This document shows, in pieces, positions 60,914-64,000 of a stretch of 64,000 bases of DNA (positions within the stretch are counted from its first letter, which is position 1; every line of letters begins with the position of its first letter). Where the stretch lies: contig NZ_JACDOB010000002.1 of NCBI RefSeq assembly GCF_017656375.1, positions 1-64,000 of the forward strand, read 5' to 3'. The position numbers were made by a program, and so were the translations under genes. The notes below the pieces were generated by a model. The model searched no databases. It worked only from the letters and a program-made list of their open reading frames with translations, and was not told the origin of the DNA. The stretch comes from Thermovirga sp. GTDB lineage: Bacteria; Synergistota; Synergistia; Synergistales; Thermovirgaceae.

Positions 60914-62068
60914 TTATATATAACCCTTCTCCTTAAGCACCTCAGAAGCCCTAACCAATTTTGCTGCAGGTACTTTAACCACTGGACCAGTACATCCCAT
61001 TGCAGATTCAGCATAAATTCCGTTTTTCCACAGCTCCTTGACTGCCCCCTCTATGGACAATACATCTATGCCATGAATCTCTTCTTCCGTAGGCTCTGCT
61101 GGCGGAGCTGTTACATCCTCTTCCTTTGCGGCTGAAGTGCTATGGCGCAGAGAATCCAGTACCGACGAAAGCCCAGCTTTCTCAGCTAACTTCAACTCCT
61201 GGCCTAATACATCCTGAAGGCTGCCCCTAGTTGCATCTGCCGTAAACTCTATGGCATTGGCTATAACTGGGGCACCTGAAGCCCTAGAGATTATAGAGAC
61301 TATGTAGGGCCACCCTTTCCCTATTGAAGGGCCATATCCCCAGCCTACAGCTTCATAGTTACCTCCTGTGGTGAAGGCCGAAAAAAGCTTGATCAAAACG
61401 TTACCCGTAAGGGTATCGGTAACACAAACATCAACGGCGCCAGCAAGAAGATCGTTTCCCCTTAAGATCGCTCCACCGTCCTTACGTATGCTCTCTCCGA
61501 ACTTCAATGGATATCCTTTTTCTACTAACTCAGACAGTTTTCTGTAGACCACCTGGGCACCTTCAATGTTCAAAATTCCGATCTTGGGCTCCTTAATTCC
61601 TACAGCCTTTGCCACAGCGCTACCATATATGGCGTTGAGCACCATGGCCTCCAATCTAGAAGTAGAGCTCGTGCCTGTAGTGGATGCAATAAACATTGCC
61701 TTACCTCTTCCTGGGGTTACTACTCTCCCTATAGTAGTAACTCCCAAGGGGAACGGGTAATGTAAAGCCACTGCCCCATCTATAGTTCCAGATTTCAAAG
61801 CATCTTCCATAGCTTTCGCTATTTCATTTTCATCCCTTGAGGTCTCAATCCACTCAAAGCCATGGTCCTCCTTTGGCTTAGGGCCTATCATTACAACCTC
61901 CACACTTTTGTTTCTAGATCTAGCTAGACAGGCCCCTTCCAGCAGCTCTCCATCACCATGCTCACTACCTGAAGCCATAAGTCCAACTTTTATAGGCTTT
62001 TCTCCATAGCGAGCCTTCTGCACAATTACAGAAAGTTCTTCTCCTATAATTTTCTTTAAATTATCCAT
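60914..62068 (-). CDS. grdD: Glycine/sarcosine/betaine reductase protein C, alpha subunit
   Basis: GrdD with GrdC converts the carboxymethyl-selenoether on protein A to acetyl phosphate. The ~384-residue protein resembles PlsX/phosphotransacetylase-like enzymes, with S-G-S-E-H-G-D-G-E-L-L-E-G-A and, near the C-terminus, the thioester-forming cysteine in A-M-G-C-T-G-P-V-V. ATG 62068 follows GAGGAG. It lies 15 bases after grdC. Confidence 0.94.
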   Translation of the reverse strand: MDNLKKIIGEELSVIVQKARYGEKPIKVGLMASGSEHGDGELLEGACLARSRNKSVEVVMIGPKPKEDHGFEWIETSRDENEIAKAMEDALKSGTIDGAVALHYPFPLGVTTIGRVVTPGRGKAMFIASTTGTSSTSRLEAMVLNAIYGSAVAKAVGIKEPKIGILNIEGAQVVYRKLSELVEKGYPLKFGESIRKDGGAILRGNDLLAGAVDVCVTDTLTGNVLIKLFSAFTTGGNYEAVGWGYGPSIGKGWPYIVSIISRASGAPVIANAIEFTADATRGSLQDVLGQELKLAEKAGLSSVLDSLRHSTSAAKEEDVTAPPAEPTEEEIHGIDVLSIEGAVKELWKNGIYAESAMGCTGPVVKVPAAKLVRASEVLKEKGYI

Positions 62069-62083
62069 AAAAAACACTCCTCA

Positions 62084-63622
62084 TTATTGCTGTTTCTTAA
62101 GGTCTTCTGCCAATCCTTGCAGGACATCCAAAACAGCCTCTCTTATTTCTTCTCTTGTAAGAGCTGCCTTTTCTTCTTCTTTCTGGCCCGGCTCAATAAT
62201 AAAAGATGCCCCATCAGAAAGGTTTGTAAGTCTCGCCAGGAACAAGCTGCCCTTACCTATAATCATTGCTCGTTTCATCTCATTGGCCTTTATTGCATCA
62301 CAAGCATGCCCGATAAATGGAACCCCTGAAGGAATGTGTCCCTGTGTGTGGGCAAAGCCAGGAATACCCTTGTTTTTAACAAATTCGTTCATAGCACTCT
62401 TCTCCAAGCGCCCTTTCATAACAGCAAGTGCAGCTATCATTTTAAAGTTGGCCAAAGGCACATCCCCGGCACCTGCAGGTAAGGTTATTTCCGGTATATG
62501 AAGTTCTGCTGCATATTTGTCTATATCGTTGAAATCCAAGCCCAGCTTCTGCAGGGGCTCCCATACTAAAGCACTTGTAATGGCCTGGGGTGAAGCTCCA
62601 GCTGCAACGGAGTGTTTGCCTAGGGCATCCAACCTAATCACTGGATTTTCTCCGTCCGAGGGGCCAAGAAGAACAGCAAAGCCTCCAAGACAGTCCTCAA
62701 GAGCTGGCATATCTTTTTTAATATGATCTCTACTGTTCATAAAAAGTTTAGGAACAGCTCCCCCAGCCAAAACTACAACGTTTTTTCTAGCACCAGATGC
62801 CACCTGGCATGCTCCTGCTATAACTGCGTTTACCGGGCCAGCACAAAAACTTCTCACATCACATCCAGAAGCATTGACACATCCAGCTATCTCCGCAACG
62901 GCCTTAGCAAAATTGCCGCCACCTCTCTGGTTAGCGTCTCCTGCAGCTTCCTCAGAACATTCTACAACGTAATCAATTTCTTCAGGTTTGATACCAGCGT
63001 TTTTCATCAAATGAAGCAAAGAAAGCACTCCACCTGCTTTGCAAGCTATATTTTCTAAAAGCACGTAAGATGACAGGCATTCATCAGTCTCGTGCCCTCT
63101 TCTGCAACATCCAACAACCCTTTCGCCAAGATACAGAGGAAGTGCTTCGTTTTCGTTGACCTCCTTCATTATTTCTTCCTGAGGATGACCTGCTTCAAGT
63201 CTCTTCAATTGGGATTCGTTCAAAAGGGAATGACCTTCCAATTTGCTTTTTATTTCAGAAGCAAAGATCTCTTCCAACCAGATTATGTCAAAGACATCAC
63301 ATATATCCATAAGCCCAATAAATTCATCTTCGGGCATGATTTCCCCGTATTTACCGAAGCGATCACAACTTTTCAATCTATTTTCATACATAGGGCTTGG
63401 CTGCTGCTCCAATTCTGCTAGGGTTATTCCTCCTATATAGGCCTGATTAGGAGCATAAGCACAAGCTTCCTTGTAGCTCTGCATTTTATTTTTTAGATTT
63501 TTGATAAATTCCGTCTCGCCTCTTAAAAGTCTCTCTGTAAACGGAGTATTACCGTAGTGAAAAGCAATGTTTGGAACATGATTCAGACAGTAAGAATAGC
63601 CCTTTATTGATGCTTTAGCCAT
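62084..63622 (-). CDS. grdC: Glycine/sarcosine/betaine reductase protein C, beta subunit
   Basis: This 512-residue subunit of protein C has a FabH-like thiolase fold: N-Q-A-Y-I-G-G-I-T-L-A near residue 60, C-E-V-like G-C-D-V-R-S-F-C-A-G-P-V, and a late G-H-I-P-S-G-V-P-F-I-G-H. It works with GrdD in releasing acetyl phosphate from the protein A selenoether. Start ATG follows AGGAGGA. Confidence 0.94.
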   Translation of the reverse strand: MAKASIKGYSYCLNHVPNIAFHYGNTPFTERLLRGETEFIKNLKNKMQSYKEACAYAPNQAYIGGITLAELEQQPSPMYENRLKSCDRFGKYGEIMPEDEFIGLMDICDVFDIIWLEEIFASEIKSKLEGHSLLNESQLKRLEAGHPQEEIMKEVNENEALPLYLGERVVGCCRRGHETDECLSSYVLLENIACKAGGVLSLLHLMKNAGIKPEEIDYVVECSEEAAGDANQRGGGNFAKAVAEIAGCVNASGCDVRSFCAGPVNAVIAGACQVASGARKNVVVLAGGAVPKLFMNSRDHIKKDMPALEDCLGGFAVLLGPSDGENPVIRLDALGKHSVAAGASPQAITSALVWEPLQKLGLDFNDIDKYAAELHIPEITLPAGAGDVPLANFKMIAALAVMKGRLEKSAMNEFVKNKGIPGFAHTQGHIPSGVPFIGHACDAIKANEMKRAMIIGKGSLFLARLTNLSDGASFIIEPGQKEEEKAALTREEIREAVLDVLQGLAEDLKKQQ

Positions 63623-63639: not shown

Positions 63640-63682
63640 AAAAAGGTAAGGGGAAAGACACGTCGCGCCTCTCCCCTTACCT
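63640..63682 (-). terminator. Attenuator-like terminator between grdB and grdC
   Basis: Inverted repeat AGGTAAGGGGA / TCCCCTTACCT (63644-63654 and 63672-63682), 17-base loop, followed on the minus strand by TTTTT and then the grdC ribosome-binding site. It probably lowers grdC-grdD expression relative to grdB. Confidence 0.75.
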
Positions 63683-63689
63683 AGTATTA

Positions 63690-64000
63690 TTAATCGTTAA
63701 ATACCGTTTGATCTTCCACCTCGGTCTGAAGAGCTTTAAGAGCCTTCATTACAAGGTGCTTGCGCAATTGCTTCTCTTCTTCAGGTGTTTTTGTTGGATC
63801 TCCTAATGGATGAGGTATAGCAACAGCAGGAACTATTCTATTGGCTCCTACCGTTAAAGAAATAGGAACTATGGTACATACATGCACTACCGGCAAGCCG
63901 GCTCTTTCAATTTCCTTTACGATCGTTGCACCGCAACGAGTACAGGTTCCTCAGGTCGAGGTCACAATCACAGCAGTTACGTTAGCATCCTTGAGCTTCT
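63690..64000 (-). CDS. grdB: Glycine/sarcosine/betaine reductase selenoprotein B, C-terminal part, with in-frame UGA (selenocysteine)
   Basis: This is the substrate-activating subunit, which forms a Schiff-base or direct intermediate and uses a selenocysteine. From the window edge (64000) the frame reads through TGA at 63953-63951 and continues to the TAA at 63692-63690. Around the UGA it reads S-T-U-G-T-C-T-R-C-G-A-T-I-V-K, followed by V-C-T-I-V-P-I-S-L-T-V-G-A-N-R and A-I-P-H-P-L-G-D-P, all GrdB/F/H family signatures. A gene caller that stops at UGA would report only a 68-residue fragment starting at 63896. The substrate (glycine, sarcosine or betaine) cannot be told from this part. Confidence 0.92.
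63924..63938 (-). promoter_or_regulatory. Bacterial SECIS-like hairpin for UGA decoding
   Basis: In the minus-strand mRNA, CGUUGC and GCAACG form a perfect 6-bp stem with a GGU loop. It starts 12 bases after the UGA, the position used by bacterial SECIS elements bound by SelB. Confidence 0.8.

Follow-up and report, generated by a model that had tools for sequence, protein, structure and literature searches.

The in-frame UGA in grdB of Thermovirga sp. is almost certainly (probability roughly 0.98, as judged from sequence evidence) a standard bacterial selenocysteine-recoding site of the substrate-binding selenoprotein of glycine reductase. The window analysed here, i.e., the whole 64,000-nucleotide stretch, holds only the 3' end of the gene, amounting to its last quarter or less, while the remainder lies past the window edge. 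The complete gene (contig C2:63690-64997) encodes 435 amino acids and contains a single in-frame UGA at codon 349, hereafter Sec349. The relevant features in the window are the following.

63690-64000, minus strand: 3' part of grdB, an open reading frame with TGA read as U.
63951-63953, minus strand: in-frame UGA (Sec349) within the motif STUGTCTRCG.
63913-63950, minus strand: SECIS element, Rfam RF01990 (SECIS_4; 54.8 bits, gathering score 38), folding energy -12.8 kcal/mol.
63933-63938, minus strand: 5' arm of the SECIS stem, CGUUGC.
63930-63932, minus strand: apical loop of the SECIS, GGU.
63924-63929, minus strand: 3' arm of the SECIS stem, GCAACG.
62084-63622, minus strand: grdC, glycine reductase complex component C subunit beta (NF040746, 747 bits, cut-off 450).
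60914-62077, minus strand: grdD, glycine reductase complex component C subunit alpha (NF040747, 566 bits, cut-off 350).

On the minus strand, the site reads GTG ACC TCG ACC TGA GGA ACC TGT ACT CGT TGC GGT GCA ACG, and the corresponding peptide, VTST-U-GTCTRCGAT, represents the UxxC motif expected of GrdB. The first-pass annotation had proposed that the frame conserved in GrdB continues through the UGA, and this was borne out: the frame is open from the UGA down to the TAA stop codon at 63690-63692 (minus strand), and the full-length protein scores 686 bits against the model for glycine reductase selenoprotein B (TIGR01917, cut-off 602) and 576 bits against PF07355. The nearest named relatives of grdB are found in metagenome-assembled genomes of Synergistota (76-82% identity), one of which is a Thermovirgaceae bin, and it is on this gene that the placement in the phylum was based. 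The accompanying claim that standard gene calling breaks the gene holds for a plain reading with translation table 11; models for selenoproteins exist in curated pipelines.

The stem of the hairpin starts exactly 12 nt 3' of the UGA. The distance and the GGU loop were correctly given in the first-pass annotation, but its stem length of 6 bp is a slight undercount, because a flanking U-A pair closes the base of the stem and thereby extends it to seven contiguous Watson-Crick pairs. Bacterial SECIS elements have been delimited by a loop of 3-9 nt with G as its first base, a stem of 4-16 bp, a UGA-to-loop distance of 16-37 nt and a folding energy of -7.5 kcal/mol or lower (PMC13188914). The grdB hairpin falls within each of these limits, with a loop of 3 nt starting with G, a stem of 6-7 bp, 18 nt between the UGA and the loop, and the folding energy listed above. 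The E-value of its match to the Rfam model is 3.5e-10. When the same peptide was randomly recoded with synonymous codons drawn from this genome's own grdB family, a stem of equal or greater length arose in 86 of 20,000 recodings and an equally stable fold in 10 of 2,000. A degenerate pattern of the Sec site occurred once in the window and in none of 100 shuffles.

Conservation was assessed in 83 homologous grdB loci, mostly from Synergistota and Bacillota and including one Acetothermia record. The UGA was retained in all 83, and the homologues among the matches listed in 121 genomes likewise all contained the in-frame TGA. No replacement of the UGA by a Cys codon was found in the 83 loci, even though the search pattern left this codon free, nor among the matches listed in the 121 genomes. 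Extra in-frame stops were considered as possible signs of a GrdB with two Sec residues, but in two genomes (G006 and G112) the extra stop proved to be the true terminator near the C-terminus; two others that were also flagged (G025 and G074) were left out.

A GGN loop is present in every one of the 83 loci. All six stem pairs are formed in 67 of them and five in the remaining 16, where the outermost pair is missing, so that the other five pairs are formed throughout. Classical evidence from covariation is thin: four of the six pairs are invariant in the pair-count alignment, and the pair-keeping changes amount to one double change of U-A to C-G and one change of U-A to G-U. Because these four pairs never vary, synonymous entropy was chosen over pair covariation as the measure of constraint. 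Across the homologues, 132 codons specify an amino acid that is both invariant and degenerate; of these, the four stem codons, i.e., R +5, C +6, A +8 and T +9, show the least synonymous variation, with normalised entropies of 0.07, 0, 0 and 0.39, respectively, versus a mean of 0.92 elsewhere. Cys is always encoded by TGC and Ala always by GCA, while Arg is encoded by CGT in 81 and Thr by ACG in 65 of the 83 loci. That the four least variable codons are precisely those of the stem indicates that the RNA itself is under selection. As read from these alignments, the SECIS hairpin of grdB is under selection at the RNA level, and the synonymous-codon test is a clean demonstration of it.

The first-pass annotation had further concluded that the organism must make selenocysteine, and had named a complete lack of sel genes as one observation that would speak against it. 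The genome, with a completeness of 99%, contains all components required for Sec decoding: selA (578 bits) and the adjoining selB (384 bits), both over their cut-offs, on contig C1, selD (349 bits) on contig C19 (L117 4136-5182), and a tRNA-Sec with anticodon UCA (78.9 bits) on contig C3. A yedF-type selenium gene lies beside selA and selB. Codon 12 of selD is itself an in-frame UGA, and selenophosphate synthetase is thus predicted to be a selenoprotein as well.

An in-frame UGA alone is silent on which residue enters, and one could imagine that it is read as tryptophan, as in code 4, or as cysteine or glycine via a suppressor tRNA. Such a reading is highly improbable, given the presence of tRNA-Sec(UCA) together with complete selA, selB and selD in the genome, the fit of the hairpin to the bacterial SECIS model, and the restriction of in-frame UGA codons in the operon to grdA and grdB, the remaining genes being open without any. 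Equally hard to believe is that the UGA is a real stop, a sequencing error or a nonsense mutation, with the downstream similarity representing a decaying 3' end; the sole point in its favor is that a plain table-11 reading ends at the UGA, and it is already refuted by the conservation of the UGA and of the frame, since TGA is found in all 83 loci and in all matches listed in the 121 genomes, the reading frame past the UGA is conserved over its full length and accompanied by a SECIS, and all three grdB paralogues of the genome contain the UGA. No evidence against Sec recoding in grdB was found.

The two further grdB paralogues, on contigs C1 and C11, each combine the UGA with a SECIS-like element, which scores 39.0 bits in the C11 paralogue, over the gathering score, and 34.0 bits in the C1 paralogue, under it. 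At the C1 locus (L005 4185-9993), genes for a CdaR-type regulator and a radical SAM protein lie near a second pair of grdB and grdE; the GrdB of this pair barely exceeds the cut-off of TIGR01917 (603.1 vs. 602.2). The C11 locus (L006 291-9904) contains a third, divergent grdB-type gene with a grdE-like partner. The product of this grdB-type gene has the motif TSTUGTGTRCG and stays under the cut-offs of the glycine, sarcosine and betaine models, and the neighboring genes encode a TRAP transporter, a member of the opine-dehydrogenase family, an L-serine dehydratase and a cysteine-synthase-like protein.

In the main locus, the gene order is grdX-trxA-grdE-grdA(Sec44)-grdB(Sec349)-grdC-grdD. Thus, grdE and the Sec-containing grdA (Sec44 of 158) directly adjoin grdB upstream, where the first-pass annotation had pointed to them, and the operon comprises grdE, grdA, grdC, grdD and a thioredoxin gene, as expected for a genuine grdB. 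Most of these genes were named by NCBIfam models, but grdE by the Pfam component-B family, and trxA scores just below its NCBIfam cut-off. A glycine riboswitch (RF00504, 66.5 bits; L004 9775-9888, minus strand) is located directly upstream of grdX, preceded by a gene for a sodium-dependent transporter, and a gene for an AgcS amino acid carrier is found downstream of grdD. This context supports glycine as the probable substrate of GrdB. GrdB fell short of both other substrate models, scoring 711 against the sarcosine cut-off of 800 and 556 against the betaine cut-off of 775, although its raw sarcosine score is slightly above that for the glycine model, the only one with its cut-off passed. A longer stretch at the riboswitch resembles the glycine-GGAnGA variant, below the gathering score of the latter.

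Just past the grdB stop codon, the 70-nt grdB-grdC spacer contains a hairpin of ~18 bp (window positions 63644-63682, minus strand). This hairpin is unrelated to the Sec site. Its folding energy is -30.7 kcal/mol (z -5.5), and no shuffle was equally stable. Stems of at least 10 bp were found in 63 of 71 unique grdB-grdC spacers from Synergistota and Bacillota, versus 13 of 68 grdE-grdA, 6 of 65 grdA-grdB and 0 of 33 grdC-grdD spacers, a contrast that is partly due to length, because the median lengths of these spacers differ (85, 52, 38 and 10 nt, respectively). Normalised per nucleotide, the folding energy of the grdB-grdC spacer still exceeds that of the other spacers more than twofold. The letters of the hairpin diverge by lineage, with GGGTGAT...ATCACCC cores in many Bacillota and GGCCCGG...CCGGGCC in close relatives, and a T-run follows it in few spacers. 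A terminator scan reported none in this spacer, a long hairpin possibly falling outside its loop limit and its 5-of-8 T rule; no Rfam family matches the hairpin, and no description of it was found in the literature searched. Tentatively, this hairpin, conserved in position but divergent in sequence, might set the ratio between the GrdE/A/B and GrdC/D transcripts across Synergistota and Bacillota, through 3'-end stabilisation, processing or partial termination.

From established knowledge, the events at the recoding site of grdB can be envisaged as follows. SelB, loaded with GTP and Sec-tRNA-Sec, would bind the hairpin, and the ribosome arriving at the UGA would insert Sec rather than terminate. 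Partnered by Sec44 of GrdA, Sec349 of the UxxC motif would then contribute to the reductive cleavage of glycine, and GrdC/GrdD would release acetyl phosphate for ATP synthesis. The Sec assignment correctly marks as a selenoprotein gene what would, if read naively, be cut at codon 349, and it points to selenium use by the organism in energy conservation based on glycine.

The assignment is correct, and it is already known in kind, because there are precedents in both Clostridium and Synergistota; beyond annotation, it adds nothing new. According to its citation in PMC9312934, Kreimer and Andreesen described the grdAB genes of Clostridium litorale with two in-frame TGA codons in 1995. In C. sticklandii, Sec is located at position 350 of the 436 residues of GrdB and at position 44 of the 158 residues of GrdA (PMC3091704). 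The GrdB proteins of both species belong to the same family (TIGR01917/PF07355) as the one described here; the position of Sec is shifted by one residue relative to C. sticklandii (349 of 435), that in GrdA is common to both, and the Clostridium proteins, from another phylum, show ordinary sequence divergence only. The hairpin matches SECIS_4 over its full length and at the expected place, and differs from it in nothing notable. A survey of 2016 already described the phylum Synergistetes as rich in selenoproteins (PMC5029168). In Cloacibacillus porcorum, each of the eight grdB genes received a Sec assignment in 2023 on the basis of a UGA and a SECIS (PMC10838667). Thus, in C. porcorum MFA1 and other Synergistota, Sec in GrdB was predicted in the same way and alongside complete Sec machinery (PMC10838667; PMC5029168), and the present case concerns a different genome of the same phylum, with no mechanistic difference.
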